Assembly (NCBI GenBank): GCA_947073545.1 | Contig: CAMTMP010000005.1 | Span: forward strand, 1 to 64,000 | Direction: 5' to 3' | DNA length: 64,000 nucleotides | From: an uncultured bacterium | Lineage (GTDB): Bacteria; Bacillota; Clostridia; Lachnospirales; Lachnospiraceae | In this document: positions 14,147-53,099 of the stretch, piece by piece | Layout of the letters: every line of letters starts with the position of its first letter | How positions within the stretch are numbered: the stretch's first letter is position 1 | Translations under genes and position numbers: made by a program | Notes under the pieces: model-generated | What the model saw: the letters and a program-made list of their open reading frames with translations, nothing else | Database searches by the model: none | What the model was told of the DNA's origin: nothing

Positions 14147-15835
14147 ATGATTATTGGAATCGACTTGGGAACAACAAATAGTCTGGCGGCGTATTTCACG
14201 GAGGATGGACCGCAGATCATACCGAACCGCCTTGGAAAGAGGCTGACGCCCTCCGTGGTGAGCATGGATGAGGAAGAACAGATTTATGTGGGAGATCTGG
14301 CGGTGGAGAGAAGGCTTCTCTATCCGGACAGTGCGGCGTCCGTATTCAAGAGAGATATGGGCAGCGGCAGAAAATTCAGCCTTCTGCATAAGACCTTTTC
14401 GGCGGAGGAACTTTCTTCTTTTGTCCTTCGCGCGCTTAAGGAGGATGCGGAAGCATATCTGGGTGAGCCTGTTACGGAGGCGGTGATCAGTGTGCCTGCC
14501 TATTTTAACGACGAGAGACGGCGTGCCACCAGAAGAGCCGGGGAACTTGCGGGACTTAAGGTGGAGCGGATTATCAGCGAGCCGACGGCGGCAGCCATCG
14601 CATATGGCTTATACCAGAGTCAGGGTCATATGCGGTTTCTGGTGTTTGATCTGGGAGGCGGTACCTTTGATGTTTCCGTGCTGGAGCGCATTGACAGTAT
14701 TTTGGAAGTGCGCGCCGTAGCGGGAGATAATTTCCTTGGCGGCGAGGATTTTACGAATGTGCTGGAGGAGATGTTTTTCGAAAAATTTCCGCAGTTTGAC
14801 CGCCTTTCGCTTGACGCAAAGACCCTGCGCCATATTCACAAACAGGCGGATAAATGTAAGATTGGCTTCTCGGAGGGGAAGACTTCTATTATGGAGTGCA
14901 AGATCGGTGAGGAGGTGTTTTCCTTTACGGTAGAGCTTTCTGCCTACGAAAATGTATGTGAGGAACTGCTCGAGAAGATCCGGCAGCCCGTGCGGCGCAG
15001 TCTCTCCGACGCGCATATCCGGCTTTCCGATATTGACAAGGTGGTGTTGGTGGGCGGGGCAACTAAGAGTCCGGTGATCCGTCGGTTTGTGAGCAGACTG
15101 TTCCGGGTAATTCCGGATACCAATATCAATCCTGACGAGGCGGTGGCTCTGGGCGCGGCGATTCAAGGCGCTATGAAGGAGCGGAAAGAGGCAATCAAAG
15201 AGGTGATCCTCACGGACGTCTGCCCCTTCACGCTCGGCACGGAAGTGGTCAGAGAGTGGGAGAAGGGCTATTTTGAGAACGGCGTGTTTTGTCCGATTAT
15301 CGAGAGAAATACGATTATTCCGGCAAGCCGCACGGAGCGGCTCTATACGGTGCGGGATGACCAGACGAAGATACGGGTTAATGTGCTGCAGGGGGAGAGC
15401 CGCTTCGCGAAGAATAATCTGTCTCTGGGAGAGCTGAATATAGAGGTGCCGTCCGCCCCTGCGGGGGAGGAGGCAGTGGACGTAACATACACCTATGACA
15501 TCAATTCCATTCTGGAAGTGGAAGTAAAGGTGGTGTCCACCGGAAAGCGGGAGAAACAGGTTTTCGGCGGGAGAAACGCAGACATGACGAAGGAGGAGAT
15601 TGCTGCGCGGTTTGAGACGCTTTCCTACTTAAAAATTCATCCGAGGGACAGGGAGGAGAACAAGTATCTGCTCACGCTGGGGGAGCGGATGTATGAGGAG
15701 AGCCTGGGAGACAAAAGATATCTCATATCTCAGGAGCTTCACAAGTACGAGCAGGCGTTGAATACGTATGATCCGGGGACGATCGAGCGGGCGAAAGAGG
15801 CGTTCCGGGAGTTTTTGAAGGAGTTGGAAGACTAG
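14147..15835 (+). CDS. hscC: Hsp70-family chaperone, HscC-like
   Basis: A 562-residue Hsp70, shorter than DnaK (about 640) and close to HscC (about 556). Nucleotide-binding motifs are present: [10 protein letters not shown] (3-12), [41 protein letters not shown] and [15 protein letters not shown], followed by a beta substrate-binding domain starting near [10 protein letters not shown] and a short helical lid. The DnaK C-terminal tail is absent. Its partner is probably the J-like TPR protein just upstream rather than DnaJ/GrpE, which are not here. The HscC name is by length and context; client proteins are unknown. Its TAG stop is the first base triplet touching hairpin element copy 2. Confidence 0.85.
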
Positions 15836-15960
15836 CGTGAGAAGAACTTTTAAAGCTCAGCAGCAGAGGCTGCTTCGCTAAGAAATTCTAAGTCTCACGC
15901 AGGAGAATGCCTGAAATACGGCATTCTCCGTAGCGATTTGAGATTCCGCGATGCGGAATC
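15835..15960 (+). repeat. Two-hairpin intergenic element, copy 2 (with third hairpin)
   Basis: The outer stem is GCGTGAGA (from 15835) with TCTCACGC (15893-15900); inside are AAGAACTT/AAATTCT and an AGCAGC/GCTGCT subhairpin. Hairpin 2 is GGAGAATGCC (15902-15911) with GGCATTCTCC (15920-15929). A third hairpin GATTCCGC/GCGGAATC (15942-15960) follows and runs straight into ATGGAGGG, the hflX ribosome site. The element starts on the last base of the Hsp70 stop codon. There is no T-run, so it is not an ordinary terminator. Confidence 0.8.
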
Positions 15961-15974
15961 ATGGAGGGATGTTC

Positions 15975-17333
15975 ATGGAACGGGTGCTTTTGGTGGGCGT
16001 AAACTTAAATGACGGGGAAGATTATCTGACCTCGCTGGAGGAGCTTGGGGCGTTAGCCGAGGCCTGCGATATGGAAGTGGCGGGTGTGACGTCACAGACA
16101 CTTGAGACAGTGCACAAGGCTTTCTATATCGGCACGGGTAAGGTGGATGAGGTAAAAGGGCTGGCCCGGGATTTGGGAGCAGATGTCATCATTTTTGACA
16201 ATTCCCTCTCCCCCATGCAGATGCGAAACCTACAGGAGCGGCTGGAGAAGCCGATTCTGGACAGAAGCGCGCTGATTCTGGATATTTTCGCGAGAAGGGC
16301 CAGATCAAGAGAGGCGAAACTGCAGGTGGAAGTGGCGAGACTGCAATATATGCTGCCAAGACTTGTGGGGCTCCACGCGGCACTCTCAAGGCAGGGCGGC
16401 GCCAGCGGTTCCATGAGCAGCAGGGGCGCCGGGGAGACGAAGCTGGAGCTGGACAGACGTGTGTTGGAAAAGAGGCTTTCGGAGCTTAGGCGGGAATTGA
16501 AGGAAGTGGGCAACGAGCGGGAGACACAGAGAAAACGACGTGTGAAGTCGGGACTTCCGAGAGTGGCGCTGGTGGGTTATACCAACGCGGGAAAGTCTAC
16601 GCTCTTAAATGCCATGCTTGATCTTTATGGTGCGGACGAGAGAGAGGTGCAGGAGGAGAAGCGCGTCTTTGAGAAGGACATGCTCTTTGCCACGCTGGAT
16701 ACGACGGTGCGAAAGATTGCGCCGCCGGATCATCACGCCTTCCTGCTGTCGGATACGGTCGGCTTTATCCACAAGCTGCCGCACAATCTGGTGGAGGCGT
16801 TTCAGTCCACGCTGGAGGAGGCGAAGGAGGCGGATCTGCTCATACAAGTGGTGGATTACAGCGACGAACATTATAAGGAGCAGATTGCCGTCACCAATCA
16901 GACCTTAAAGAAACTGCAGGCGGACGGCGTCCCCATGCTCTATATCTATAATAAGTCGGATCTGGTTTCCCCGGACGCGCTGCCGGGGCTTTCCGGGGTG
17001 GCGGCGGAAGAACTGGCCGCACATCTGCCGGTGGTGCCGAAGGCGAATGCGGGAGACGGATTCACTTTGGGGGACAGCTCTGGCGATTCGATTTACCTGT
17101 CCGCCAAAAAGCGGATCGGGATGGAGGAGCTGGTCTGCCTGATCGAGGAGAAGCTTTCCGGCGGATACAAGGAGTGTACGCTGCTGATTCCCTACACGGA
17201 CGGCAGGGCGGTTTCTTACCTCAACGAGAACGCGGTGGTTTTTGAGACGTCGTATGCGGAGGATGGCGTGCGGATGCGGGTGAACTGTAAGAAAGAGGAT
17301 TACGGGTATTATATAAAGTATATGGAAGGGTGA
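15975..17333 (+). CDS. hflX: Ribosome-associated GTPase HflX
   Basis: A 452-residue GTPase of the Obg-HflX group that binds the large ribosomal subunit and splits stalled ribosomes. The N-terminal HflX domain (GTGKVDEV, DNSLSPMQMRNLQ, the SRGAGETKLELDRR glycine-rich linker) precedes the G domain: G1 GYTNAGKSTLLN near residue 200, G3 DTVGFIHKLPHNLVEAF, G4 NKSD. The start at 15975 has GGAGGG 6 bases upstream; an ATG at 15969 is too close to it. It sits directly after the third hairpin of element copy 2, which could affect its translation. Confidence 0.95.
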   Translation: MERVLLVGVNLNDGEDYLTSLEELGALAEACDMEVAGVTSQTLETVHKAFYIGTGKVDEVKGLARDLGADVIIFDNSLSPMQMRNLQERLEKPILDRSALILDIFARRARSREAKLQVEVARLQYMLPRLVGLHAALSRQGGASGSMSSRGAGETKLELDRRVLEKRLSELRRELKEVGNERETQRKRRVKSGLPRVALVGYTNAGKSTLLNAMLDLYGADEREVQEEKRVFEKDMLFATLDTTVRKIAPPDHHAFLLSDTVGFIHKLPHNLVEAFQSTLEEAKEADLLIQVVDYSDEHYKEQIAVTNQTLKKLQADGVPMLYIYNKSDLVSPDALPGLSGVAAEELAAHLPVVPKANAGDGFTLGDSSGDSIYLSAKKRIGMEELVCLIEEKLSGGYKECTLLIPYTDGRAVSYLNENAVVFETSYAEDGVRMRVNCKKEDYGYYIKYMEG

Positions 17334-17359
17334 TTTAAAAACGGTTATTGGGAAGTGTG

Positions 17360-17388
17360 TTGCACCTGCGGCGCATATCCTTTATAAT
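17360..17388 (+). promoter_or_regulatory. Strong sigma-A promoter of the aconitase-family gene
   Basis: TTGCAC (17360-17365), exact 17-bp spacer, TATAAT (17383-17388). Expected transcription start is near 17395. Confidence 0.75.
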
Positions 17389-17447
17389 AATTTTGGTAGT
17401 TATAAATGGAGAAATACGGAAAGAATCACACAGACATGGAGGAGCGT

Positions 17448-19754
17448 ATGATTGAACTGACACAGGGCGGCGCGTATCTGCTAAACGGGACGGAGATCGT
17501 TCCGGACAGCGCGGATGCGGCGGCGCGGATCAAGAATAAGACCGGACGGGACGTATCGAAAAACGAAGCGGCGAAGAACACCATCGCATACGGTATTCTG
17601 GAATCCCATAACACGTCCGGCAATATGGAGAAATTAAAGATTAAATTTGATAAACTGACTTCTCACGACATTACGTTTGTGGGGATTATCCAGACGGCGC
17701 GCGCTTCGGGACTGACCAGATTCCCCATTCCCTACGTGCTCACCAACTGTCATAATTCCCTGTGCGCGGTGGGCGGCACGATCAATGAGGATGACCACAT
17801 GTTTGGCCTTACCTGTGCCAAGAGGTACGGCGGCGTCTATGTACCGCCCCATCAGGCGGTTATCCACCAGTATGCAAGGGAAATGCTCGCGGGCGGCGGC
17901 AGGATGATTTTAGGCTCCGATTCCCATACAAGGTACGGTGCGCTCGGCACGATGGCGATGGGCGAGGGCGGCCCGGAGCTTGTTAAGCAGCTTTTGTCCC
18001 AGACTTATGATATCAATATGCCCGGTGTTGTGGGCGTGTACCTGACAGGCGAGCCGGTAAAGGGCGTCGGGCCGCAGGATGTGGCATTAGCTATCATCGG
18101 CGCGGTATTTGGAAACGGTTATGTAAAAAACAAGGTGATGGAGTTCGTAGGCCCGGGCGTTGCCTCCCTGAGCGCGGATTTCCGCATCGGCATCGACGTG
18201 ATGACCACGGAAACCACCTGTCTGTCTTCGATCTGGCGGACGGACGAGCAGATAAAAGAGTTTTACGATATCCACGGCAGGAAAGAGGAATATAGGGAGT
18301 TAAATCCGGGCGAGGTCACCTATTACGACGGCATGATCACGGTGGATCTGTCGAAAGTTCGTCCTATGATCGCCATGCCGTTCCATCCGAGCAACACCTA
18401 CACCATAGATGAGGTGAACGCGAACCTGAAGGATGTGCTTCACGACGTGGAGGAGCGGGCGAAAGTCAGTCTGGACGGCGCGGTGCCTTATTCTTTGCAG
18501 GATAAGGTTGTGGACGGCAAGTTTATGGTGGATCAGGGGATTATCGCGGGATGCGCGGGCGGCGGTTTTGAAAATATCTGCGCGGCGGCGGATATCCTGC
18601 GCGGCTCCTATACCGGTTCCGACGGCTTTACTTTAAGCGTGTACCCGGCTTCCATGCCTGTCTATATGGAGCTGATTAAAAACGGCTGTGCGGCGGCCAT
18701 TTTGGAGACGGGCGCGGTGCTTAAGACGGCGTTTTGCGGCCCCTGCTTCGGTGCGGGCGACACGCCGGCGAACAATGCGTTCAGCATTCGGCACTCTACG
18801 AGGAATTTCCCCAACAGGGAAGGCTCCAAGCTGCAAAACGGCCAGATTTCATCCGTGGCGCTTATGGACGCAAGATCCATCGCGGCTACGGCGGCCAACA
18901 AGGGTATGCTGACTCCGGCCACCGAGTTTGACGGGGAAATCGGAAAATATAAATATCACTTTGATGCCAATATTTATAAAAACCGCGTCTTTGATTCCAA
19001 GGGTGCTGCGGATGAGAGTGTGGAGATTCAGTTTGGGCCAAACATCAAGGACTGGCCCGCTATGGGCGCGCTGCCGGAGAATCTGGTGCTGCGGGTGGTT
19101 TCGGAAATCCATGATCCCGTTACCACGACGGACGAGCTGATTCCTTCCGGGGAGACATCTTCCTACCGTTCCAACCCGCTGGGGTTGGCGGAGTTTACGC
19201 TCTCCAGAAAAGACCCCGAATATGTGGGCCGTGCCAAGGATATCCAGAGGGCGGAGAAAGCAAGAATGCAGGGAGAGAACCCCTGTCAGGCCCACGCGGA
19301 CGTGAAGCCGGTGATGGATGTGGTGAAGAACCGCTTTTCGGACGCGTCCCACGAGAATACCGGGTTCGGTTCCACAATCTTTGCGGTGAAACCGGGCGAC
19401 GGTTCCGCCAGAGAGCAGGCGGCAAGCTGCCAGAAAGTGCTGGGCGGCTGGGCGAATATCGCCAACGAGTACGCGACCAAGCGCTACCGGTCCAACCTGA
19501 TCAACTGGGGAATGCTGCCGTTTCTGATCGAAGCGGGAGAACTGCCGTTTAAGAATCTGGATTATCTGTTCTTCCCGGGCATCCGCAAGGCGGTAGAGGA
19601 GAAAGCGGAAACTGTCGAGGCTTATCGTGTCTGTGTGGAAGAGGGAACGCTTCAGCCGTTTACTTTGGCTTTAGGGGAGCTGACGGACGAAGAGAGACAG
19701 ATTATTTTAAAGGGCTGCCTGATCAATTACAACAGGGTAGAGGCGGAGAAATAG
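17448..19754 (+). CDS. Aconitase-family hydratase (YbhJ-like)
   Basis: A 768-residue member of the aconitase superfamily, which isomerises hydroxy-acids by dehydration and rehydration at a 4Fe-4S cluster. Cluster cysteines are recognisable: GCAGGGFEN (Cys369) and [14 protein letters not shown] (Cys430, Cys433). Other family stretches are [20 protein letters not shown] and the C-terminal swivel domain with NYATKRYRS-like sequence ([21 protein letters not shown]). It resembles the E. coli YbhJ type more than AcnA/B, so the true substrate is not certain. The start at 17448 has GGAGGAG just upstream; an ATG at 17406 is only about 11 bases beyond the predicted transcription start. It has its own promoter. 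Confidence 0.82.
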
Positions 19755-19834
19755 GCTGAAAGCTTGACGGCGGGGGCCGTCTGGCTGAAAAGCAGGAAGC
19801 TCACACGAAAGAATGCGCAAAAAGCAGCGTTCTT
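19755..19834 (+). repeat. Degenerate copy 8 of the two-hairpin element
   Basis: It begins right after the TAG stop. Hairpin GACGGC/GCCGTC (19766-19781) sits within a longer region bounded by AAGCTT and AAGCT, then CTCACAC, then AAGAATGC (19809-19816) with GCGTTCTT (19827-19834) and the loop text AAAAAGCAG seen also in copy 6. Position and layout match the family, but pairing of the first stem is weak. Confidence 0.4.
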
Positions 19835-19853
19835 CGCATGGCTTAGGGGGATT

Positions 19854-20843: not shown

Positions 20844-20955
20844 AACAGCGTGAGAAGTGTTAAGTAAATGGGAAAAGTTCCGATATATAAATTACAGGGA
20901 TACAGCTCATGGCCAGAGCATGTTTTTCTGGAATTTGAATGATGTTGAGACCAGG

Positions 20956-21005
20956 GACGGTATTTTTAGGGAAAAGGAATTTCCATAAGAGTGCCGTCTT
21001 TTTCT
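20956..21005 (+). terminator. Terminator-like hairpin inside the leader of the EF-hand-like gene
   Basis: GACGGTA (20956-20962) pairs with T-GCCGTC (20992-20998) around an inner GGAAA/TTTCC hairpin, followed by TTTTTC. It lies about 80 bases before the TTG start at 21084 and 110 bases after the LamG gene. The region 20880-20955 also holds CCAGA/TCTGG and CTCA/TGAG pairings and a TATAAA, so it may be a separate leader RNA rather than only the end of the previous transcript. Confidence 0.5.
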
Positions 21006-21083
21006 ATTGCCGGGCGTCAGGGAAGGCGCTGTCTGGTGCACAGGCGGGCGCAGAAAGAGGTCTTATACAAAAAGGAGGGAACA

Positions 21084-22151
21084 TTGATCATTGATTCCGG
21101 TACCATAGGGATGCAGTCCTCCAGAACAAGCCGTACGGTGACAAGAGTTCATGCGAAATCTATAGCCGGTACGTTTGCGGGCGGAAAAGAAGGATTGGAT
21201 TCTCTTTTTGAGAATCAGCCCGGCACTGGAGAAAAGACTGCCGGGGAGGAAAAAGACAAGGATAAGGCGAAGCTTGAAGACCTCTCCGCACATATGCGCA
21301 ACACTACCGGCGGATGGCAGATTTCCACGAGGAATGATGAGAAGGAGGCTGCGCGCAGTATCAAACAGCAGTGCGTGGAATTTTTGTTAGAGCTTCTGTT
21401 TCGCTTTCGCGGGAACAGGGGTGTCCAGAACAGCCCGATAGCTGCAGCGGGCGGCACGAACATGTACTCGGTGCAGGGGTTTCAGATGCAGCGTTATTAC
21501 ATGGAAGAGGAACATACCACCTTCGCCACTCAAGGTACGGTGAAAACTGCGGACGGGAGGGAGCTGTCCTTCAATCTGGAGTTTGGCATGAGCCGCAGGT
21601 TTGAAGAGTACTATGAGGAAAATGTGGTTACATCCATAAAAACGTTTAAAGATCCGCTGGTAATCAATCTGAATACCAACGTCGCGAAAGTTTCCGATCA
21701 GAAGTTTTTCTTTGATCTGGACTGCGACGGCGAGGAGGAAGAGATTTCGAGCCTGCAGGCGGGCAGCGGCTTTTTGGCTCTTGATCTGAACGGAGACGGG
21801 CAGATCAATGACGGCAGCGAGCTTTTCGGCACAAAGAGCGGCGACGGCTTTAAAGATCTTTCCAAGTATGATCTGGATGGCAACGGCTGGATTGACGAGG
21901 CGGATCCCATCTGGGAGAAGCTTCTGATCTGGACGAAGGATGAAAACGGGAATGATAAACTGTACCATCTCTCTGACTTGGGTGTGGGAGCCATCGGCCT
22001 TTCCCGGGTAGGGACACAGTTTTCCCTGAATGACAAGCAGACGAATGAGGCCAATGCCATGATCCGAAAGACGGGTATTTTCCTGTATGAAAACGGATCG
22101 GTATCCACACTGCAGCAGTTGGATATGGCGGTGTATAACGAAAAGGGCTAG
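21084..22151 (+). CDS. EF-hand-like calcium-binding protein, unknown role
   Basis: A 355-residue protein with a low-complexity, Lys/Asp/Glu-rich N-terminal part and no signal peptide. The C-terminal half carries two Asp-rich loops of the calcium-binding type, LDLNGDGQINDGSELFG and YDLDGNGWIDEADPIWEKL, preceded by FFDLDCDGEEEE. Similar proteins are found in motile Clostridia and other bacteria, commonly with unknown function. A TTG start at 21084 is chosen because it has AAAGGAGGG 5 bases upstream; no ATG with a ribosome site precedes the conserved part. The stop TAG coincides with the first base of hairpin element copy 3. Confidence 0.7.
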   Translation: MIIDSGTIGMQSSRTSRTVTRVHAKSIAGTFAGGKEGLDSLFENQPGTGEKTAGEEKDKDKAKLEDLSAHMRNTTGGWQISTRNDEKEAARSIKQQCVEFLLELLFRFRGNRGVQNSPIAAAGGTNMYSVQGFQMQRYYMEEEHTTFATQGTVKTADGRELSFNLEFGMSRRFEEYYEENVVTSIKTFKDPLVINLNTNVAKVSDQKFFFDLDCDGEEEEISSLQAGSGFLALDLNGDGQINDGSELFGTKSGDGFKDLSKYDLDGNGWIDEADPIWEKLLIWTKDENGNDKLYHLSDLGVGAIGLSRVGTQFSLNDKQTNEANAMIRKTGIFLYENGSVSTLQQLDMAVYNEKG

Positions 22152-22293
22152 TGTGGAAGTACTTCTAATCACTCGCAGCAAAGGCTGCTTCGCAAAGTCA
22201 GCAAAGCTGACTTGGAAGTACTAAGTCTCACACAAGAGAATGCCGAAAAACGGGCATTCTCCGCACAGATCTGTGTCGCTGTGAAGCAGCGAC
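22151..22293 (+). repeat. Two-hairpin intergenic element, copy 3 (longest, with third hairpin)
   Basis: The outer stem is GTGTGGA (from 22151) with TCTCACAC (22226-22233); AGTACTTC pairs with GAAGTACT. The interior carries two subhairpins, GCAGC/GCTGC and GTCAGC/GCTGAC. Hairpin 2 is GAGAATGCC/GGCATTCTC (22236-22261). A third hairpin GTCGCTG (22275-22281) with CAGCGAC (22287-22293) is followed by ATGGAGG, as in copy 2 but with unrelated stem sequence. A further hairpin (CACCC/GGGGTG) lies before the spoIID start. Confidence 0.75.
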
Positions 22294-22348
22294 ATGGAGG
22301 TTAGTATAAAAGACAGGGCACCCGCATAGAATTTATGTGGGGTGTCAC

Positions 22349-23308: not shown

Positions 23309-23413
23309 GGCGGAAAATTTGGGTAAAACTATCAGAGAAACCCGGTGCATGGGCTGCCCTCGCTTCGACGGACGGTTATTGCGGCATCGGAAGAAAAACA
23401 GGAGGCGAGTTTC

Positions 23414-25688: not shown

Positions 25689-25713
25689 ATGCTTACTACC
25701 GGAAAATGCCATC

Positions 25714-32455: not shown

Positions 32456-32523
32456 AGCGGCTTCCGCTTGGAAAGGTATAAGTATAACAGGCGGTCACAA
32501 GTTCCGCCCCAAGGAGGTGCCAG

Positions 32524-33039
32524 ATGGAATATACAAACGAGTATGTTTCCCCTCTCGGAAAGATATTGCTTGCGTCAGACGGACATGCCCTGACGGGATT
32601 ATGGTTTGAGGAGCAGAAATATTTTGCGGCAAAACTGAACCCGGATCACGAGGAGAAAAATCTGCCTGTCTTTGCGCGGGCGGTAGAGTGGCTCACCCAG
32701 TATTTTGGCGGGAAGAAACCTGCTTTTACGCCGCCGCTTACTTTGAAAGGATCGACTTTTCAGAAAGAGGTTTGGGAAGCGATGCTTGCGATTCCGTTTG
32801 GACAGACGACCACCTATGCGAAAATTGCGGTGGGGATTGCGGAGAATAGAGGGCTTGCCTCCATGTCGGCGCAGGCGGTGGGCAGTGCGGTAGCCCATAA
32901 CCCCATTTCCCTTATTATCCCTTGCCACAGGGTTGTCGGGTCGGACGGCAGCCTGACGGGGTATGCGGGCGGACTGGAGAAAAAAGAGTGGCTTTTGGCA
33001 ATGGAAAGACAGGCAGCGGGAAATGTGGTATACTATTAA
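32524..33039 (+). CDS. ogt: Methylated-DNA-protein-cysteine methyltransferase
   Basis: A 171-residue DNA-repair protein that takes the methyl group from O6-methylguanine onto its own cysteine. The acceptor site is intact: IIPCHRVVGSDGSLTGYAGG (Cys134), with the HTH part FQKEVWEAMLAIPFGQTTTYAKIA. The N-terminal domain is short, as in Ogt. The start follows AAGGAGGTGCCAG. It is followed by pyrK after 24 bases, so it may be co-transcribed with the pyrimidine genes. Confidence 0.94.
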   Translation: MEYTNEYVSPLGKILLASDGHALTGLWFEEQKYFAAKLNPDHEEKNLPVFARAVEWLTQYFGGKKPAFTPPLTLKGSTFQKEVWEAMLAIPFGQTTTYAKIAVGIAENRGLASMSAQAVGSAVAHNPISLIIPCHRVVGSDGSLTGYAGGLEKKEWLLAMERQAAGNVVYY

Positions 33040-33840: not shown

Positions 33841-34739
33841 ATACAGAGGTAAAAATCGCGGGAGTTACCTTTAAGAATCCTGTTATGACGGCATCCGGCA
33901 CCTTCGGTTCCGGCATGGAGTACTGTGATTTTGTGGATTTGAACAGACTTGGCGCGGTGGTGACCAAGGGAGTGGCGAACGTGCCGTGGGAGGGAAATCC
34001 GACGCCCCGTGTGGCGGAAGTGTACGGCGGCATGTTAAATGCCATCGGCCTGCAGAACCCGGGGATCGACGTTTTTATGGAGAGAGACTTGGAATTTTTA
34101 AAGAATTATGACACCAATGTCATTGTGAATGTCTGCGGCAAAACCGTGGAGGATTATCTGGAAGTGGTGGAGCGTCTTTCGGACACGTCCGTTTCCATGC
34201 TGGAAATTAATGTGTCCTGCCCCAATGTGAAAGAGGGGGCGATCGCTTTTGGGCAGAAGGCGGATTCCCTCTATGATATCACATTGCAGATTAAGAAAAA
34301 GGCGAAACAGCCGGTGATTATGAAGCTGAGCCCGAATGTGACGGACATTACGGAAATGGCAAAAGCGGCGGAGGCGGCGGGCGCCGACGCGCTTTCCATG
34401 ATTAACACGATCACGGGCATGAAGATTGATATTCACAAAAAAAAGTTTGTGCTTGCCAATAAGACAGGCGGCATGTCCGGCCCTGCGGTCAAGCCGGTGG
34501 CTGTGCGCATGGTTTATCAGACGGCGCAGGCGGTGAAGATTCCGATTATCGGCATGGGCGGTATCGGAAACGCGGAGGATGCGATTGAGTTCCTGCTTGC
34601 CGGAGCCAGTGCAGTGGCGGTTGGCGCGATGAATTTTGTGAATCCTTACACGACTGTGGAGGTGGTGGAAGGAATTGAAGCTTACATGAAACAGTACGGG
34701 ATTGAGAACGTGACAGAGCTGATCGGGGGCGTAGCGTGA
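33837..34739 (+). CDS. pyrD: Dihydroorotate dehydrogenase B, catalytic subunit
   Basis: A 300-residue FMN enzyme oxidising dihydroorotate to orotate. Class 1B features are VMTASGTFGSGMEY, KGVANVPWEGNPTPRVAE, LEINVSCPNVKEG with the catalytic Cys, VIMKLSPNVTDI, SMINTITGMKID and PIIGMGGIGNAEDAIEFLLAGASAVAVG. It is coupled to pyrK by a 4-base overlap. Its TGA stop lies within the first stem of hairpin element copy 4, and a strong terminator follows at 34857. Confidence 0.96.
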   Translation: MNTEVKIAGVTFKNPVMTASGTFGSGMEYCDFVDLNRLGAVVTKGVANVPWEGNPTPRVAEVYGGMLNAIGLQNPGIDVFMERDLEFLKNYDTNVIVNVCGKTVEDYLEVVERLSDTSVSMLEINVSCPNVKEGAIAFGQKADSLYDITLQIKKKAKQPVIMKLSPNVTDITEMAKAAEAAGADALSMINTITGMKIDIHKKKFVLANKTGGMSGPAVKPVAVRMVYQTAQAVKIPIIGMGGIGNAEDAIEFLLAGASAVAVGAMNFVNPYTTVEVVEGIEAYMKQYGIENVTELIGGVA

Positions 34740-34829
34740 AAAGTGCTTCGAAAGACGTTCCGCCATAGGACGGGACGCCAAGAAGCACTAAGTTTCACGC
34801 AGGAGAATGCCTGAAATGCGGCATTCTCC
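34734..34829 (+). repeat. Two-hairpin intergenic element, copy 4
   Basis: The outer stem is GCGTGAAA (34734-34741) with TTTCACGC (34793-34800); AGTGCTTC pairs with GAAGCACT; the inner stem GACGTTCCG pairs with CGGGACGCC around the loop CCATAGG. Hairpin 2 is GGAGAATGCC (34802-34811) with GGCATTCTCC (34820-34829). The pyrD stop codon lies inside the first stem arm. Confidence 0.85.
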
Positions 34830-34856
34830 GCACGACATATTTTTAAGAACATAATC

Positions 34857-34909
34857 TGCCCTCCCTGCGCATAGATTTATAGTAACTATACGCAGGGAGG
34901 GCATTTTTT
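34857..34909 (+). terminator. Strong hairpin with T6, carrying the next gene's RBS in its 3' arm
   Basis: TGCCCTCCCTGCG (34857-34869) pairs perfectly with CGCAGGGAGGGCA (34891-34903), followed by TTTTTT (34904-34909). The 3' arm contains AGGGAGG, 9 bases before the GTG start at 34910, so the hairpin both fits an intrinsic terminator and would hide that ribosome site in any read-through RNA. Confidence 0.8.
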
Positions 34910-36466
34910 GTGGAATTGGTGAAGAAAAAGATACATATGGATCGAATAAACGGCAGAGCCGGCACGCAGATGGTATTGGAAGAGGACGTAAACATTTCAG
35001 ATAATAAACTGGATGCAAACTATCTGTTAAGCAGTAAAGGCGAGATCATAATGGAGGAAATCCGCCTCGGTGAAAACGTAGTCAGCCTGAAGGGCAGGCT
35101 GGTGGTGTCCATACTGTATCTGACGGACATGGAGGGGATGTGCGCCAGCATGGAGGCGGTGATTCCCTTTGAGGAAAAGGTTAATATGGAAGGGGTAAAC
35201 AATGGCGATACGATCCTGACGGAAAGCTGCATCGAGGATCTGACGGTGGGGCTTATTAACTCGCGCAAATTCAGTGTACAGGCGGTGGTTTCCCTGTCGC
35301 TTGCGCGGGAGGAGCAGATGGAGTGTGAGACGGCGGTTGACCTTTACCATGAGGAACCCGTGGAGTACCGCAAGTGCGTCTATCCCGTGATAGAGCTGGT
35401 GCTGCATAAGAAAGATATTTTCCGCATGAAAGAAGAGATGGAGCTGACGGGAAATCTGCCCAATGTGTTCCAGACCATATGGCATCATATTTGCTTTGAC
35501 CATGTGGAATTTAAGGCGCTGGAGGAGAAACTTTCGATTCAGGGTGAGATGCGGGCATTTTTCCTATATGAGGGGGAAGGGGATAACGATAAAACACAGT
35601 GGTATGAGAATACCGTACCATTCAGCGGTATTATCGAGTGCCACGGATGCCGGGAAAATATGATTCCCGATATTCAGTATCACTTGGGACAGTGCAACGT
35701 GGAAGTGAGGCAGGATTTCGACGGCGAGGAGAGAGTGTTCTGCGTGGAGCCGGTGCTGGATCTGGATATTCACCTCTACGAGGAGGAAAATCTGGAGGTG
35801 ATTTCCGATGTTTACGGCGTGGATAAGGAAATTGAGGCGTTGACGACACAGATGCCCATTAAGAGTCTGCTCCTTGCCGGAAGTGGAAAATGTAAGATTG
35901 CGGAGCATACGAGAATACAAAATCCGGAGATGCCGATGTACCAGCTCATTCATTCCGACGGGGAAATCAGAATCGACGAGCAGAGCATTGTGGAGAACGG
36001 CATTGCTGTTGCGGGAACGCTCCTGGTGACGACGCTATACCTGAGTGCGAGCGGTGCGAAGTCCATTTATTCCACGGTCAATGAGCTGCCCTTCCAGTAT
36101 GTGATCGAGGCGGAGAACATTCTGCCCGCCTGTGTCTATAAGCTGCGAAGCAGCATCGAGCAGTTGACGGTGACCATGCTTGACAGCGATGAGCTGGATG
36201 TGAAAGCTGCATTACAGTTTAAGGTGATTGTATTTTCTGTGCAGAACCGCGATCTGGTGACGGACATTAGGGTGGAACCGCTCGACTTAAATAAGCTCAG
36301 TGAGCTGCCGGGCATGGTGATCTGTATTGTGGGGCAGGGAGAGACACTGTGGGACATCGGTAAGAGATATTATGTGCCGGTGGCGCAGCTTAAGGAAGTG
36401 AACGAACTGCCGACGGAGGAGATTTCGGCGGGGGATAAAATTTTGGTTGTTAAGGGCGGGATTTAG
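34910..36466 (+). CDS. SPOCS (DUF3794) and LysM domain protein, spore-coat type
   Basis: A 518-residue protein without signal peptide. It carries repeated DUF3794/SPOCS-type beta domains (for example VVSLKGRLVVSILYLTDMEG and IAVAGTLLVTTLYLSASGA, about 90 residues each) and a C-terminal LysM of about 45 residues (VGQGETLWDIGKRYYVPVAQLKEVNELPTEEISAGDKILV). Related proteins such as SipL of C. difficile bind the SpoIVA coat base through LysM, so a role in spore-coat assembly is likely. The GTG at 34910 has AGGGAGG 9 bases upstream; an ATG at 34937 is an alternative start. The expected sporulation promoter was not identified. Confidence 0.85.
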   Translation: MELVKKKIHMDRINGRAGTQMVLEEDVNISDNKLDANYLLSSKGEIIMEEIRLGENVVSLKGRLVVSILYLTDMEGMCASMEAVIPFEEKVNMEGVNNGDTILTESCIEDLTVGLINSRKFSVQAVVSLSLAREEQMECETAVDLYHEEPVEYRKCVYPVIELVLHKKDIFRMKEEMELTGNLPNVFQTIWHHICFDHVEFKALEEKLSIQGEMRAFFLYEGEGDNDKTQWYENTVPFSGIIECHGCRENMIPDIQYHLGQCNVEVRQDFDGEERVFCVEPVLDLDIHLYEEENLEVISDVYGVDKEIEALTTQMPIKSLLLAGSGKCKIAEHTRIQNPEMPMYQLIHSDGEIRIDEQSIVENGIAVAGTLLVTTLYLSASGAKSIYSTVNELPFQYVIEAENILPACVYKLRSSIEQLTVTMLDSDELDVKAALQFKVIVFSVQNRDLVTDIRVEPLDLNKLSELPGMVICIVGQGETLWDIGKRYYVPVAQLKEVNELPTEEISAGDKILVVKGGI

Positions 36467-44443: not shown

Positions 44444-44474
44444 AAACAAGAAATCATAAGAGGAGGATACGAAA

Positions 44475-45866: not shown

Positions 45867-45868
45867 TA

Positions 45869-45982
45869 GAGTGAAAAGAACTTCTAAAGCTCAGCAGCAA
45901 GGGCTGCTTCGCTAAGAAGTTCTAGGAGCTGCACTGCAACTCCGCTTCACTCAGGAGAATGTCTGGGAAACAGGCATTCTCC
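45869..45982 (+). repeat. Two-hairpin intergenic element, copy 5 (with stem insertion)
   Basis: The outer stem is GAGTGAA (45869-45875) with TTCACTC (45946-45952); AAGAACTTCT pairs with AAGAAGTTCT and AGCAGC/GCTGCT lies inside. Relative to other copies, about 20 bases with the self-paired GGAGCTGCACTGCAACTCC replace the usual AAG before the closing arm. Hairpin 2 is GGAGAATGTCTG/CAGGCATTCTCC (45954-45982). Confidence 0.78.
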
Positions 45983-46005
45983 GTACAAAAAATCGGGGCA
46001 GAGAG

Positions 46006-47232: not shown

Positions 47233-47270
47233 TCGGTGTGGGACTGCGGCTTGAGCGGACGCTGATTCAT

Positions 47271-48155: not shown

Positions 48156-48194
48156 CACGATTCCGGCGGTTTCGCAAAAAGGCAGGATAAGGGA

Positions 48195-48224
48195 TTGACT
48201 TTTTCGCAGTGCATAAGATAGAAT
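48195..48224 (+). promoter_or_regulatory. Promoter of the lar-nik operon
   Basis: TTGACT (48195-48200), 18-bp spacer, TAGAAT (48219-48224). The long leader follows. Confidence 0.65.
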
Positions 48225-48228
48225 AGAT

Positions 48229-48418
48229 AAAGATAAAAGCGGGCAAGAAGCCTGCATGGGGACAGAAGTTCCTATAAGACACAGTACGATTTTAGGCGGA
48301 AAAACCTTGTCAGCGGCATGTATATGCCGTTTTCAGCGAAATAGATTAAGTGGTGCAATGTATACGCAGGAAGGTATACGATTCCTAGAAAGGGAATCCT
48401 ATGTCTTCCTTTCTTTGT
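48229..48418 (+). promoter_or_regulatory. Structured leader ending in a terminator, candidate nickel-sensing riboswitch
   Basis: After the promoter come hairpins GCGGGC/GCCTGC (about 48239-48255), CCTATAA/TTTTAGG (about 48271-48296), and CGGCAT/ATGCCG (about 48312-48326), separated by unpaired GGGGACAG and ACACAG. Then an 18-bp stem, AGGAAGGTATACGATTCC against GGAATCCTATGTCTTCCT with one mismatch, ends in TTCTTTG (48368-48417), fitting an intrinsic terminator. With larE-larB-larC and a nickel-type transporter downstream, a metal-responsive (NiCo-like) switch is a reasonable reading but is inferred. Confidence 0.5.
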
Positions 48419-48459
48419 GCTTATAAGCACAGCGAATAGAGGAGTCGGAAGGAGCAATT

Positions 48460-49206
48460 ATGGATCTTACTATTTTTTTCAAAGAAAACCCGAAAGCTGC
48501 GGTCGCTTTTTCCGGCGGCACTGACTCGGCGTATCTGCTCTATGCGGCGGCAGCGGCGGGGGCGGATGTGCGGGCATACTATGTAAAGAGCGCGTTTCAG
48601 CCGCGTTTTGAGCTGGAGGATGCGAAGCGTCTCTGCAGGGAATTGGATATTGACTTAAAAATATTCACGGCGGACGTGCTTGCCCACAAAGCCGTCCGGG
48701 AAAATCCTGCTGACCGCTGCTATTATTGTAAAAAAATAATATTTACGGCGATCGCAGAATCGGCGGCAGCGGATGGCTATGAGCTGCTGCTTGACGGCAC
48801 AAATGCCTCCGATGAAGAGGGAGACCGCCCGGGGATGCGGGCGCTGCGGGAACTGTCCGTGCGCTCTCCGCTGCGGGAGTGCGGGCTTGCCAAGGAGGAG
48901 ATACGCAGACTTTCCAGAGAGGCGGGGCTTTTTACATGGAACAAACCGGCGTACGCCTGTCTGGCGACCCGGATACCCGCAGGAGAGGAAATTACGGCGG
49001 AAAAGCTAAAAAACACGGAGGCTGCGGAAGAATTTCTCTTCTCGCTTGGTTTTACGGATTTTAGGGTAAGGCGGTTCGGTGAGGCGGCAAGACTGCAGTT
49101 TCCGGTGTCACAGCTTGGGAGTGTTCTGGAGAAAAGAGAAAAAATTGTTGGGAAACTGAAACAATATTACGGAGCGGTTTTGCTGGATATGGAGGCGAGG
49201 ACATGA
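48460..49206 (+). CDS. larE: Sacrificial sulfur transferase for nickel-pincer cofactor (LarE)
   Basis: A 248-residue ATP pyrophosphatase. LarE adenylates the carboxylated pyridinium precursor and supplies sulfur from its own cysteine. The PP-loop VAFSGGTDSAYLLYA is at 14-28. The conserved PAYACLATRIP holds the Cys (167) equal to the sacrificial cysteine of Lactobacillus LarE, and RCYYCK adds two more (Cys about 87 and 90), a pattern seen in some LarE that may bind a cluster. The stop overlaps the larB start by 4 bases. The start follows GTCGGAAGGAGCAATT. Confidence 0.92.
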   Translation: MDLTIFFKENPKAAVAFSGGTDSAYLLYAAAAAGADVRAYYVKSAFQPRFELEDAKRLCRELDIDLKIFTADVLAHKAVRENPADRCYYCKKIIFTAIAESAAADGYELLLDGTNASDEEGDRPGMRALRELSVRSPLRECGLAKEEIRRLSREAGLFTWNKPAYACLATRIPAGEEITAEKLKNTEAAEEFLFSLGFTDFRVRRFGEAARLQFPVSQLGSVLEKREKIVGKLKQYYGAVLLDMEART

Positions 49207-49973
49207 GTGATTATCGAAAAATTCTGGAACAGGTGAGGGACGGTGAAGTTTCCGTGGAGGAGGCGCTTCTTGCCATCAAAAAAAAGCCTTTCGAGGATAT
49301 CGGTTATGCCAAGGTGGATCATCACAGGGGCGTTCGTCAGGGAGCGCCGGAGGTGATTTTTGGCGCGGGAAAAGAGGCGGCGCAGATTGCAGGCATCGTT
49401 GACAGTATGAAGAAAAACGGACAGGAGACGATTCTGATCACCAGACTTGCCCCGAAAAAGGCAAAGAAGGTGGCGAAGCGCTGTGAACTGACTTACCATG
49501 AACAGGCGCGGATCGGTATTGTCGGCGATATGCCGAAGCCGTCCGGAATCGGAAAAATCGTGGTCGCCACAGGAGGAACTTCGGATATTCCGGTAGCGGA
49601 GGAGGCGGCGCTTACCGCACAGGTGCACGGCAACGAGGTGGTGCGGCTCTATGATGTGGGTGTGGCCGGACTGCATCGGCTTTTGTCCCATATGGACGAG
49701 ATTATGGATGCCTCTGTGATTGTTGCGATTGCGGGTATGGAGGGCGCGCTTGCCAGTGTGATCGGGGGACTTGCGGACTGTCCTGTGATCGCGGTGCCTA
49801 CCAGCGTGGGGTACGGCGTGTCCATGCACGGGGTTTCGGCCCTTTTATCCATGTTAAATTCCTGTGCGAGCGGCGTTTCGGTGGTAAATATCGACAATGG
49901 ATTTGGGGCCGGCTATCTGGCGAGTATGATCAACCACAACATGAGAAGTACTTCTAAAGACGTCTTGCCATAG
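49203..49973 (+). CDS. larB: Nickel-pincer cofactor biosynthesis protein LarB
   Basis: A 256-residue protein of the AIR-carboxylase (PurE-like) fold. LarB carboxylates and hydrolyses nicotinic acid adenine dinucleotide in making the lactate-racemase cofactor. Family signature stretches are DHHRGVRQGAPEVIFGAGK, VVATGGTSDIPVAEEAALTA, YDVGVAGLHRLL, AGMEGALASVIGGL, VIAVPTSVGYGVS and LNSCASGVSVVNIDNGFGAGYLAS. The last ten residues (RSTSKDVLP and before) are encoded by hairpin element copy 6, which also supplies the TAG stop. It overlaps larE by 4 bases. Confidence 0.93.
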   Translation: MSDYRKILEQVRDGEVSVEEALLAIKKKPFEDIGYAKVDHHRGVRQGAPEVIFGAGKEAAQIAGIVDSMKKNGQETILITRLAPKKAKKVAKRCELTYHEQARIGIVGDMPKPSGIGKIVVATGGTSDIPVAEEAALTAQVHGNEVVRLYDVGVAGLHRLLSHMDEIMDASVIVAIAGMEGALASVIGGLADCPVIAVPTSVGYGVSMHGVSALLSMLNSCASGVSVVNIDNGFGAGYLASMINHNMRSTSKDVLP

Positions 49974-50034
49974 GACGAGACGCCAAGAAGTACTATGTCT
50001 CATGTGAGAGAATGCCAAAAAGCAGGCATTCTCT
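49939..50034 (+). repeat. Two-hairpin intergenic element, copy 6 (inside the 3' end of larB)
   Basis: The outer stem is ACATGAGA (49939-49946) with TCTCATGT (49998-50005); AGTACTTC pairs with GAAGTACT; inner GACGTCTTG pairs with CGAGACGCC around CCATAGG. Hairpin 2 is AGAGAATGCC (50007-50016) with GGCATTCTCT (50025-50034). larB reads into the first arm and stops at the TAG of the apical loop. Confidence 0.82.
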
Positions 50035-50058
50035 GCACAATTACAGGAGGGAAAATTT

Positions 50059-51297
50059 ATGAAGACATTATATTTAGACTGCGGTATGGGTGCGGCGGGA
50101 GATATGTTGACTGCGGCATTGCTGGAGCTTCTGCCGGATCGGGAGGAGGTGATCGGGGAGCTAAATGCGCTGGGGATTCCCGGTGTGGAGATAGTGTGTG
50201 AGAAAGCGCAGAAGTGCGGCATCGGCGGCACCCATATTTCCGTGCGTGTGCATGGAGTGGAGGAGTCCGAGGAGATATATGGGCAAGGGCATTTGCATGA
50301 GTCAGAGCATCACCATGACCACGACCATACGGGTGATGCAGGGCACGGACACGGTCACACCCATCATCATCACAGCGGTTTGCATGAGATCGGGCATATC
50401 GTGGAGGCACTGCCTTTGTCGGGGCGGATACAGAAAGATATTCTGGCAGTGTTCGGGATGATTGCGGAAGCGGAGAGTCATGTCCATGGCGTGCCGGTCA
50501 ATGAGATTCATTTTCATGAAGTGGGAACCATGGATGCGGTGGCGGATATCACGGCAGTCTGTGTGATGATGGACAGACTGGCGCCGGATCAGGTCATTGT
50601 GTCTCCTGTGCATGTGGGCAGCGGACAAGTGAAATGCGCCCACGGGATTCTGCCTGTGCCTGCGCCTGCGACGGCTTATATTTTACAGGATGTGCCGATT
50701 TACGGCGGGGAGATCCGTGGAGAGCTCTGCACGCCGACAGGAGCGGCCCTTTTGAAATATTTTGCCAGCCGCTTTGGAGCGATGCCGGTTATGCGCACAC
50801 TCGCTATCGGTTATGGAATGGGGAAAAAGGATTTTCCGGCGGCGAACTGTGTGCGTGCGCTGCTTGGCGAGACGGAAGGGGCGGGAGATACGGTGGCCGA
50901 GCTTGTCTGCAATGTGGACGATATGACGGCGGAAGCTGTCGGTTTTGCCGGGGAGACGCTTCTTGAGGCGGGTGCGCTTGATGTCTTCACTGTGGCGGCT
51001 GGGATGAAGAAGTCCCGTATGGGGATGGTACTGCATGTGATGTGCACGGAGTCCATGAAAGGCAAAATGGTGGAGCTGATTTTTAAACACACGACCACGA
51101 TTGGCATCCGGGAAAATATTTCCAGAAGATATACGCTTGCCCGCTCGATTCGGAAGGTGCAGACGCCCTACGGGGAAGTGAGGAAAAAAATCTCGGAGGG
51201 CTACGGCGTGACGAGAGAAAAGTATGAATATGAAGATCTGGCGCAGATCGCGAGGGAACGGGGGATGTCCATCCGAGAGGTGGAGGAATCCCTGTGA
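50059..51297 (+). CDS. larC: Nickel insertase for nickel-pincer cofactor (LarC)
   Basis: A 412-residue single-frame LarC. LarC puts nickel into the pincer cofactor. The N-terminal LarC1 part begins LYLDCGMGAAGDMLTAALLEL and has EIHFHEVGTMDAVADI and TPTGAALLKYFASRFGAMP. A His-rich loop (HESEHHHDHDHTGDAGHG, then further His) at about 82-110 is a plausible nickel store. The LarC2 part follows (ETTIGIRENISRR-like, VQTPYGEVRKKISEGYGV). In Lactobacillus LarC1 and LarC2 are joined by programmed frameshift; here one frame covers both. The start follows ACAGGAGGGAAAATTT. Confidence 0.94.
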   Translation: MKTLYLDCGMGAAGDMLTAALLELLPDREEVIGELNALGIPGVEIVCEKAQKCGIGGTHISVRVHGVEESEEIYGQGHLHESEHHHDHDHTGDAGHGHGHTHHHHSGLHEIGHIVEALPLSGRIQKDILAVFGMIAEAESHVHGVPVNEIHFHEVGTMDAVADITAVCVMMDRLAPDQVIVSPVHVGSGQVKCAHGILPVPAPATAYILQDVPIYGGEIRGELCTPTGAALLKYFASRFGAMPVMRTLAIGYGMGKKDFPAANCVRALLGETEGAGDTVAELVCNVDDMTAEAVGFAGETLLEAGALDVFTVAAGMKKSRMGMVLHVMCTESMKGKMVELIFKHTTTIGIRENISRRYTLARSIRKVQTPYGEVRKKISEGYGVTREKYEYEDLAQIARERGMSIREVEESL

Positions 51298-51341
51298 GGG
51301 AATGTGGAACAGATGACGGAAGAAACTTGCAGAGGTAAGAA

Positions 51342-53000
51342 ATGAAAAGATTAAATAATAGAGAAAAAGAGGGGAAACGGCGTATAAGAAGGGCGGCGGG
51401 ACTGCTTGTAATTGCTTTGTCGACAGGCTGTGGCATGTTAACGTCCTGCGGAGCTGAGAAGGCAGACGGGGCAGAGACAGGAAACGGACAGGAAACGCAG
51501 GCGGGCGGTCCGGTGACGGGCAAAGGACAGACAGCAGATTTGCAAGGAGAACCGAGTACTCTTGTCTACGGCAGCGGAGACTATACCCGCATCAATCCGG
51601 CATTGGATGAGCACGGCGAAATCAATCTGCTGCTCTTTGACGGGCTGACCGCGCACAACGGGGACAATGAGGTTGTGCCCGGACTGGCGAAAAGCTGGGA
51701 GTTCGACGAGGCGGCCTGCACTTATACGTTCTATCTGGAAGAGGGCGTTACCTGGCACGACGGAGAACCTTTTACGGCAGAGGACGCGAAGTTTACGATC
51801 GAGACGATTATGGCTCCGGAAAACGCCTCCGAGAACGCGCCGAATTATGAGGATGTGGAGGAAATCACGGTGACGGATGACCACACGATTTCGTTTCGGC
51901 TGTCCGCGCCGAATGTTGCGTTTCTGGACTATATGACCATGCCGGTACTTCCCGAGCATCTGCTTGCGGGGGAGGACATGCAGACTTCGGATTTTTTCCG
52001 CGCGCCGATCGGAACAGGGCCGTATCAACTGGAAAACTGGGATATGGGTCAGGCCATTGTCCTTAAGAAAAACGACTCCTATTTCAAGGGGGCGCCCCAT
52101 ATCGACAGGGTGGTTTTTAAGATTGTAACTGACGATAACGCAAAGACGCTCCAACTGGAAGCGGGAGAGCTTGATCTGGCGCTTCTGCCGCCGAAAGCGG
52201 CAAAGACGTTTGAGAACCGGGAGGACTATGTCTGCTATCATATGCAGACCTCCGATTACAGAGGGATTCTTTTCAATTTTAACAATCCCTACTGGCAGGA
52301 AAACAGGGATATTATTCCCGCTGTCTGCTATGCGATAAACAGGCAGGCGATTGTCGATGCGGTGCTGTTAGGACGGGGGATGTCCGCCTACGGTCCGCTG
52401 CAGCGCAATGTTTATAACAATGAAAACGTGGAGCATTATGACTATAATCCGGAAAAGGCGGCAGAAATTCTCGAATCTGCTGGATGCGTCAAAGGAGAAG
52501 ACGGGATTTATATAAGAGACGGAGAACCGCTCTCCTTTGTGATCAGTGTGGGGGCCGGAGATCAGGTGCGGGCGGACATGGCGCAGGCTGCGGCACAGCA
52601 GATCCGGGAGGCTGGGATCGACTGCAGAGTGGAGTTTCCGACAAAAATTGACTGGAACGGTCAAATATCCTATCTGATCGGATGGGGAAGTCCTTTTGAC
52701 GCAGACGACCATACCTATAAAGTTTTCGGCACAGGAAAGGGCGCAAACTACAGCGGTTATTCCAATGCGGCGGTGGACCGGTATCTGACGCAGGCGCGCA
52801 GCTCTGATGATCCGCAGGTGCGCGCGGAAAATTATGCCCGGTTTCAGGAGGAGCTGGCAAACGATCCGGCGTATGCGTTTATCTGCTATATTGACGCCGA
52901 TTATGTGGCGGATGCCTCGATTCAAGGCATTTCACCCGATACGGTGATGGGACATCATGGCGTGGGGATTTTCTGGAATATCGTAGAGTGGACAAAGTGA
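51342..53000 (+). CDS. Nickel/peptide ABC transporter substrate-binding lipoprotein
   Basis: A 552-residue SBP_bac_5 family lipoprotein. The N-terminus has a positive stretch, a hydrophobic core (AAGLLVIALSTGCGMLTSC) and a Cys after it, then a Gly/Gln-rich linker. The mature part shows RINPALDEHGEINLLLFDGLTAH, GLAKSWEFDEAACTYTFYL, WHDGEPFTAEDAKFTIE and YCYINR-like IPAVCYAINRQAIVD. In this operon, after larC, its cargo is probably nickel or a nickel chelate; oligopeptides are the family alternative. Start after AGAGGTAAGAA. Confidence 0.85.
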   Translation: MKRLNNREKEGKRRIRRAAGLLVIALSTGCGMLTSCGAEKADGAETGNGQETQAGGPVTGKGQTADLQGEPSTLVYGSGDYTRINPALDEHGEINLLLFDGLTAHNGDNEVVPGLAKSWEFDEAACTYTFYLEEGVTWHDGEPFTAEDAKFTIETIMAPENASENAPNYEDVEEITVTDDHTISFRLSAPNVAFLDYMTMPVLPEHLLAGEDMQTSDFFRAPIGTGPYQLENWDMGQAIVLKKNDSYFKGAPHIDRVVFKIVTDDNAKTLQLEAGELDLALLPPKAAKTFENREDYVCYHMQTSDYRGILFNFNNPYWQENRDIIPAVCYAINRQAIVDAVLLGRGMSAYGPLQRNVYNNENVEHYDYNPEKAAEILESAGCVKGEDGIYIRDGEPLSFVISVGAGDQVRADMAQAAAQQIREAGIDCRVEFPTKIDWNGQISYLIGWGSPFDADDHTYKVFGTGKGANYSGYSNAAVDRYLTQARSSDDPQVRAENYARFQEELANDPAYAFICYIDADYVADASIQGISPDTVMGHHGVGIFWNIVEWTK

Positions 53001-53005
53001 GAAAC

Positions 53006-53099
53006 GCGAAAAGTACTTCTAAAGATGTCCCGCCATAGGACGGGACACCAAGAAGTACTAAGTTTCGCATAAGAGAATGTCTGAAAAAAGACATTCTCT
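53006..53099 (+). repeat. Two-hairpin intergenic element, copy 7
   Basis: The outer stem is GCGAAA (53006-53011) with TTTCGC (53063-53068); AGTACTTC pairs with GAAGTACT; inner GATGTCCCG pairs with CGGGACACC around CCATAGG. Hairpin 2 is AGAGAATGTCT (53072-53082) with AGACATTCTCT (53089-53099). It lies 5 bases after the binding-protein stop and ends 22 bases before the ATPase start. Confidence 0.85.

Follow-up and report, generated by a model that had tools for sequence, protein, structure and literature searches.

Palindromic repeats that look mobile and lie at stop codons in Lachnospiraceae genomes

We analyzed a 64,000-nt stretch of DNA (the window; G000:C5:1-64000) from an uncultured Lachnospiraceae bacterium, contig CAMTMP010000005.1 of assembly GCA_947073545.1, whose draft genome (G000) totals 4.37 Mb in 94 contigs. 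Junctions between its genes carry copies of a structured repeat that looks like a spreading mobile element, not an ordinary regulatory RNA. We put at roughly 60% the probability that this is an undescribed, non-autonomous mobile palindromic repeat, MIRU- or BOX-like in habit and anchored at stop codons. Mobility is supported by orthologous junctions that are filled in some genomes and empty in others, by copy numbers that range within the genus from 0 to at least 68 (the scoring cap), and by near-identical dispersed copies in another genome, G374. That copies persist, or insert, at stop codons in the sense orientation is the simplest account fitting all the evidence. A first-pass annotation of the window, made from sequence alone, had suggested an undescribed structured RNA or a palindromic mobile element; the mobile part of that suggestion gained support here and selection at the RNA level did not.

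Layout, covariation and spread of the repeat

The shared layout is a branched hairpin (P1-P3) followed by another (P4), with a third (P5) in some copies. The core is about 100 nt, and units run to about 130–156 nt where the full length is readable. P1–P3 reads YAR-YGTGAGAAG...P3...CTAAGTYTCAC and is followed by P4; full-length copies add P5 and the tail CATGGRGGTTAG. Tandem units in several genomes delimit the full repeat as P1..P5-CATGGRGG, followed by TTAG and the next unit. P1 is the outer stem, and the inner stem P3 comes in two main types, one with a CCATAGG loop and one with GCAGC..GCTGC. The terminal inverted repeats typical of a classical MITE were not seen; read by eye, the ends TAGYGTGAGAAG and CATGGRGGTTAG are not complementary.

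For searching, six window copies (c2–c7) were aligned with a hand-assigned structure of P1, P2, P3 and P4 to give model R1. All are on the forward strand, at 15833..15932 (c2), 22149..22265 (c3), 34732..34832 (c4), 45867..45985 (c5), 49937..50037 (c6) and 53002..53102 (c7). R1 gave 129 matches in the genome at E≤1 and at least 113 at E≤1e-3, lower bounds since 150 of 806 first-look candidates were scored; 107 of the 113 lie outside the training copies. Re-searching the surroundings of the first matches yielded 117 at E≤0.01; with three opposite-strand overlaps excluded, this left the 114 copies counted below, while the covariation count retains all 117 rows.

The first-pass annotation had pointed to compensatory changes in a few stems, and these are real. 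Both-sided changes occur at 33 of 34 pairs, in 481 cells against a shuffled mean of 159, and 92.4% of cells pair, compared with a shuffled mean of 81.2% and 33–53% in slid controls; because the alignment was fitted to the structure, all these figures lean towards it. Two internal loops take optional small hairpins at fixed sites. Of the 114 copies, 21 have a 19–21-nt segment in the bulge between P1 and P2, and 14 have a 14–27-nt segment in the loop that follows P3; three have both. These inserts are of several sequence types, and 18/21 and 11/14, respectively, form stems ≥6 bp long closed by 3–4-nt loops. Such accessory hairpins vary in presence or sequence among orthologues, for c5 between G000 and G068, for c6 between G068 and G000, and for c7 between G003 and G000.

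The repeat is widespread in its genus, matching 56 of 60 drawn genomes at E≤1e-3 with our own included, or 55 of the 59 others. Across the family it is patchy: counting our own, 14 of 299 genomes and 13 of 298 genera match at E≤1e-5 with stricter filters. Copies from other genera have changed stems and the same layout; 12 of 21 lie between two sense genes, many of the flanks being uncalled. A draw from the class matched in 4 of 391 genomes, again including our own, with one outside the family; there, two copies share a single contig (G683:C11:40140-40237 and 32510-32601), perhaps through transfer or contamination. A strict-pattern scan of named genomes returned 25 loci: 23 from Lachnospiraceae, one from Lachnoclostridium sp. 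and one from 'Bacterium 1xD42-87'. Phage carriage was rejected, with no exact match of one strict pattern in viral contigs.

The whole window has no match in Rfam 15 at gathering score, so for that database the earlier statement that no matching named family is known stands, and relaxed Rfam searches of locus L251 and of window positions 34600-34950 gave matches far below gathering scores only. The literature searched held no description of the family; the supplements of a structured-RNA survey of the human microbiome (PMC8040213), which lie beyond the portion available to us, could list the motif. Within that literature and Rfam 15, the family is apparently undescribed. None of the outcomes that the first-pass annotation had named as counting against it (no copies beyond the contig, no covariation, an Rfam match) came about.

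Filled and empty junctions and the stop-codon register

Syntenic stretches of relatives were compared junction by junction, a check the first-pass annotation had proposed, and both filled and empty sites were found. c3 is intact in none of 11 relatives. G034 reads ...GGTTAG TATAAA..., where G000 reads ...GGCTAG, then the element ending in CATGGAGGTTAG, then TATAAA...; G048 retains a short remnant. The element at c3 is flanked by TAG/TTAG where the G034 empty site has a single TAG; this may reflect a target-site duplication or a TAG carried by the element itself. c2 is intact in none of 10 relatives, whose junctions are mostly short, those of G003 and G068 having other, unrelated sequence. c5–c7 are polymorphic, with deleted remnants. 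c5 is intact in 3 of 19 relatives (G068, G048, G072), with remnants visible by eye in five more (G003, G067, G033, G060, G058), and c6 in 4 of 19 (G068, G048, G016, G062). In G025 the genes of the c5 junction overlap by 4 nt, as do larB and larC at the c6 junction. The direction of change by parsimony is clear for c2 and c3 only.

P3 types at the c5 junction, read by eye, are of one kind in G000, G068 and G048 and of the other in G072 and G003; different types at one junction mean that re-insertion or conversion between copies occurs. G374 (isolate S10_Bin3) has three copies that are 97–98% identical to a fourth over 107–133 nt. Inspection by eye shows different flanks, and one of the copies is the downstream member of a tandem pair; the dispersed copies of this genome are overall 97–100% identical.

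Three side observations concern junction content. The element lies near the NrdR gene in four records (L218, L246, L276, L277), including another genus, either as an old insertion or at a hot spot. At the c4 junction of G034, G003 and G048 (L198, L199, L200), about 0.87–1.0 kb of extra DNA with an apparent small gene separates pyrD from the next gene. A second repeat, with core AACGCAGACGCGC..CAAACGCAGCGG, occupies some of the same junctions in relatives (L168, at c6 in G003, and L191, at c2 in G068), and in L191 its core sits between inverted GAATGGCATAAT / ATTATGCCATTC ends. The two-part pattern of this repeat was not found at any further locus; a test of the window with the initial 13 bases of the pattern gave 8 matches at 2 mismatches and none exact.

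As first noted for the window, copies share the direction of their flanking genes, and this holds genome-wide. By gene calls from a codon-usage script, for which gene starts are rough, 102 of 114 copies lie between genes of their own direction and 3 between genes of the opposite direction; the flanking genes converge at 4 copies, diverge at 2 and are undetermined at 3. Same-strand junctions dominate these loci anyway (248/263), so the informative figure is the 102:3 ratio of sense to antisense among the 105 copies at such junctions (p=1e-26).

The upstream stop codon takes a few exact positions relative to the element: bases 1-3 of the element itself (29 copies), directly before base 1 (27) and bases 6-8 (10), with minor registers ending at base 21 (5) or base 37 (4) or lying 1 nt before the element (4). 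The top two registers (0 or -3) account for 52 of the 102 copies against 2.2 expected, and 76 have a stop within -37 to +1 against 43 expected, the expectation treating all positions between a point 40 nt within the gene and the next gene as equally likely. In the window the association is tighter than the six of eight first counted, with seven of eight copies overlapping, abutting or lying 1 nt from the stop. Stops directly before the element are TAA 21 times, TAG 6 and TGA 0; predicted genes of the same loci use TAA 124, TGA 90 and TAG 77 times. The 47 copies that start with TAG are preceded by A in 24, G in 8, C in 8 and T in 7.

TAR sites between genes are present on either strand, so a trinucleotide target combined with loss of harmful insertions would not by itself account for 97% sense orientation. 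Insertion in sense might be steered to the 3' edge of translated genes, perhaps coupled to termination of transcription or translation, by a not-yet-known enzyme acting on folded single-stranded DNA; we rate this specific version as unlikely.

The position also invites a cis-acting explanation, in which the repeat is not mainly mobile and acts in mRNA under RNA-level selection, as a post-stop insulator of re-initiation or a stabilizer of the upstream cistron. Sense orientation, the exact stop register, strong folding (z of -6.4 to -10.3 for seven window copies), strong stem covariation and retention of c5–c7 orthologues in some relatives all accord with this. The available text of PMC7518266 reports that structures next to stop codons control re-initiation and are enriched at intergenic distances >25 nt; the same text reports post-stop structures to be depleted after non-terminal operon genes. 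Operons were inferred here from gene direction and spacing. The repeat is moreover missing from many orthologous junctions, near-identical dispersed copies exist, and pairing has no clear G-U preference (below), leaving a primary mRNA function fairly unlikely.

Under the mobile-repeat reading, the repeats would have spread in Lachnospiraceae genomes and persisted almost exclusively in sense, in most cases with their 5' edge at the stop codon of the gene upstream. They would be tolerated at gene junctions since reading frames close early, no terminator T-run follows, and some full-length copies end, by eye, in a Shine-Dalgarno-like GGAGG ahead of the next start codon. The first 37 nt of CCATAGG-type copies close all three frames (TAG, TGA and TAG at bases 1, 6 and 35, respectively). 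As to a MIRU-like internal frame coupled to the downstream gene, inspection of c4 and c6 shows that a frame opened by the GTG at base 5 ends at bases 35-37. The first-pass remark that no T-run is present extends genome-wide, and an intrinsic terminator was rejected, a run of at least five T after P4 occurring in 1 of 114 copies. In mRNA the element would probably form a strong post-stop hairpin, with damped re-initiation and protection of the upstream 3' end as side effects, by analogy with the post-stop hairpin behavior reported in the available text of PMC7518266.

Pair spectrum and candidate means of movement

RNA-level selection should purge A-C cells far more than G-U cells. P1, P2 and P4 of the 114 copies contain 2684 Watson-Crick, 90 G-U and 65 A-C cells. 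The best 30 copies by R1 score are 96.8% Watson-Crick, with G-U 6 and A-C 13, and the next 44 are 94.0%, with G-U:A-C at 32:24. Among model-found sets elsewhere, 17 rows in syntenic stretches of relatives were 90.2% Watson-Crick, 21 rows in other genera 96.1%, and the 25 rows of best genus matches 99.1%. These three other-genome sets (A4, A6, A7) combined give G-U 21 and A-C 22; they were used in place of set A5 (G-U:A-C 7:9 alone), which is biased because its loci were fetched by a pattern fixing the P1 and P2 arms. As a control, 29 of the 30 tRNAs of G000 gave G-U 40 and A-C 3 (Fisher 7e-6 against 90:65 and 9e-6 against 21:22).

The clear excess of G-U over A-C that marks RNA conservation in the tRNAs (40:3) is thus missing from the repeat, at 90:65 in our genome and 21:22 elsewhere. 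Selection at the RNA level, which the compensatory changes seemed to imply, is not supported; pairing is probably maintained in the DNA itself or because new copies derive from sources whose stems pair well. P4 loops add a second indication: none of the 80 that could be parsed among the 114 copies has T > A, a single orientation that suggests strand-specific recognition. Together with the near-perfect Watson-Crick stems, this points to DNA as the folded form that matters, probably as a single-stranded hairpin used by a mobilizing enzyme; homogenization of the arms through template switching or conversion between copies is also possible.

Arm homogenization could also be the whole explanation, with template switching or inter-copy gene conversion perfecting the arms of repeats that no longer move and covariation as a mutational by-product. 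This would fit the near-perfect stems, the great excess of both-sided over one-sided changes, and the accessory hairpins that differ among orthologous copies at fixed positions; template switching has been proposed to create and maintain hairpins, in the part of PMC8794818 available. It leaves dispersal and the stop register unexplained, and we consider it quite improbable. Loop inversion, as a mark of template switching, was rejected: there is no inverted loop among the 80 parsed P4s, nor in P3 of the 114 copies by the few fixed motifs tested.

A more familiar route would be a REP/REPIN or IS200/IS605-derived element mobilized by a Y1 (HUH) transposase. The hairpins, the single loop orientation, insertion beside a short TAG-ending motif and the lack of inverted ends are all compatible with this, and our genome has Y1 genes. 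Neither of its two Y1 loci has an R1 match, and other hairpins are seen there by eye; nor is G common before TAG (8 of the 47 TAG-starting copies), so there is no GTAG tag. With 8 of 18 high-copy genomes (at least 25 copies; all drafts) also having no Y1 match, we find this route very doubtful. Resident Y1 loci as parents were rejected on the same observations and because Y1 counts do not clearly track copy number; a GTAG-tagged REP was rejected on the base before TAG. Integron attC sites and IS630-type TA insertion were dropped because the ends do not fit.

Several findings weigh against a mobile repeat folded as DNA. Copy pairs within our own genome are all at most about 97% identical, giving no evidence there for recent movement. 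Some junctions, including ones neighboring NrdR and M20-peptidase genes, are occupied in several species, a pattern that functional retention would equally give. The 90:65 ratio is itself a weak G-U excess (p=0.054), the lowest-scoring 40 copies lean to G-U at 52:28 (88.0% Watson-Crick), and the tRNA control is small (29 tRNAs) with an imperfect register that leaves 29 further cells non-pairing. The lack of inverted loops counts against template switching of the loop-inverting kind. Y1 transposase counts have no clear relation to copy number over 60 genomes (Spearman 0.23, p=0.08), and the high-copy drafts without a Y1 match count here too. Finally, no mobilizing gene emerged from the neighbor screen, in which 420 predicted proteins were grouped by single linkage, 25 clusters were shown and seven representatives scanned; these were an ABC/C39 peptidase, a chemotaxis receptor, a permease, a homoserine dehydrogenase, NrdR, a HAD hydrolase and an M20 peptidase, none of them a transposase.

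Window copies and known repeat families

Six of the seven copies first called clear (c2–c7) score 73–117 bits with R1 and fold at z of -7.5 to -10.3 against dinucleotide shuffles. Their flanking genes are ordinary. c2 lies between a DnaK-like gene (14147-15835), whose stop codon is the element's TAG (15833-15835), and hflX; its P4 is at 15902-15929 and its P5, GATTCCGCGATGCGGAATC, at 15942..15960. At c3 the element's own TAG is again the upstream stop; an accessory hairpin lies at 22195-22213, and P5 (22275-22293) with the 3' tail CATGGAGGTTAG (22293-22304) takes up 22275..22304; the corresponding empty site is in G034. c4, 3' of pyrD, supplies the upstream stop by its own TGA (element bases 6-8) and has P4 at 34802-34829. 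A strong terminator-like hairpin ending in a T-run follows it at ∼34850-34910 and is kept in several relatives, so copies need not all lie within operons. For c5 the flanking genes are asnS and, after the element, an NlpC/P60-like gene; it begins immediately 3' of a TAA stop and has an accessory hairpin at 45925-45943. c6, between larB and larC, has P4 at 50007-50034, and the larB stop is a TAG within its P3 loop. c7 begins 1 nt 3' of an upstream TGA, at the junction of ABC substrate-binding-like and ABC ATPase-like genes, with P4 at 53072-53099.

The seventh, copy 1 (2579..2656, forward strand), is weaker, at 37 bits and z -6.4. It is a reduced element that keeps P1 and P4, with a small hairpin in place of P2/P3. 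A separate 22-bp near-perfect inverted repeat (2557-2578 / 2668-2689) encloses it, whose arm was not found in other fetched loci. The copy first described as degenerate (19755-19834; 19752..19837, forward strand, with the TAG stop of an aconitase-family hydratase gene) is not matched by R1, either at E≤1 with 150 of 806 candidates scored or at E≤0.01 in the re-search, and folds moderately (z -3.0). It is still credible because it follows a TAG stop and its junction is occupied in relatives too, by an intact element in G016 and by a weak remnant in G034.

MIRUs (mycobacterial interspersed repetitive units) too form tandem units. According to the part of PMC12548453 available, which cites Supply 1997, they are short, apparently mobile repeats at gene junctions with little disturbance of expression; they are said there to insert at start codons and to contain an internal open reading frame coupled by a 4-nt overlap. 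Our repeat resembles them in junction insertion, and in sense between co-directed genes (102 of 105 copies here); compared by description, it differs in its stop-codon anchoring, early frame closure, strongly branched form and phylum. BOX elements of Streptococcus pneumoniae, as covered in the available text of PMC3049150, are likewise modular, highly structured interspersed repeats, presumed non-autonomous, and encode the stop codon in 36 of 58 BOX-overlapping coding sequences. They are over-represented between convergent genes and have inverted ends linked to an insertion sequence, whereas our family lacks inverted ends and sits in sense at same-strand junctions. REP palindromes (GTAG and CGTC types; PMC3733652, in the portion available) are high-copy and mostly downstream of coding regions, the GTAG type being proposed to move by Y1 transposases (RAYTs); at 20–40 bp with an unpaired GTAG or CGTC tag they contrast with our branched units of 100–156 nt, which have no GTAG tag. 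The ribosome termination structure (RTS), also a stable hairpin immediately 3' of the stop codon, is described in the accessible text of PMC7518266 as a generic folding signal at 18–66% of genes across species, whereas our repeat is one homologous, dispersing sequence family.

This is a large and apparently undescribed Lachnospiraceae repeat family, occupying about a hundred gene junctions per genome in high-copy species. It is also a cautionary case: compensatory covariation this strong is usually taken to mark a functional RNA, yet the spectrum of pairs points to DNA. Because known junctions in many species hold many copies, the origin and maintenance of perfect hairpins become directly testable. 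If insertion does target stop codons, mobile DNA would have a new principle of targeting.

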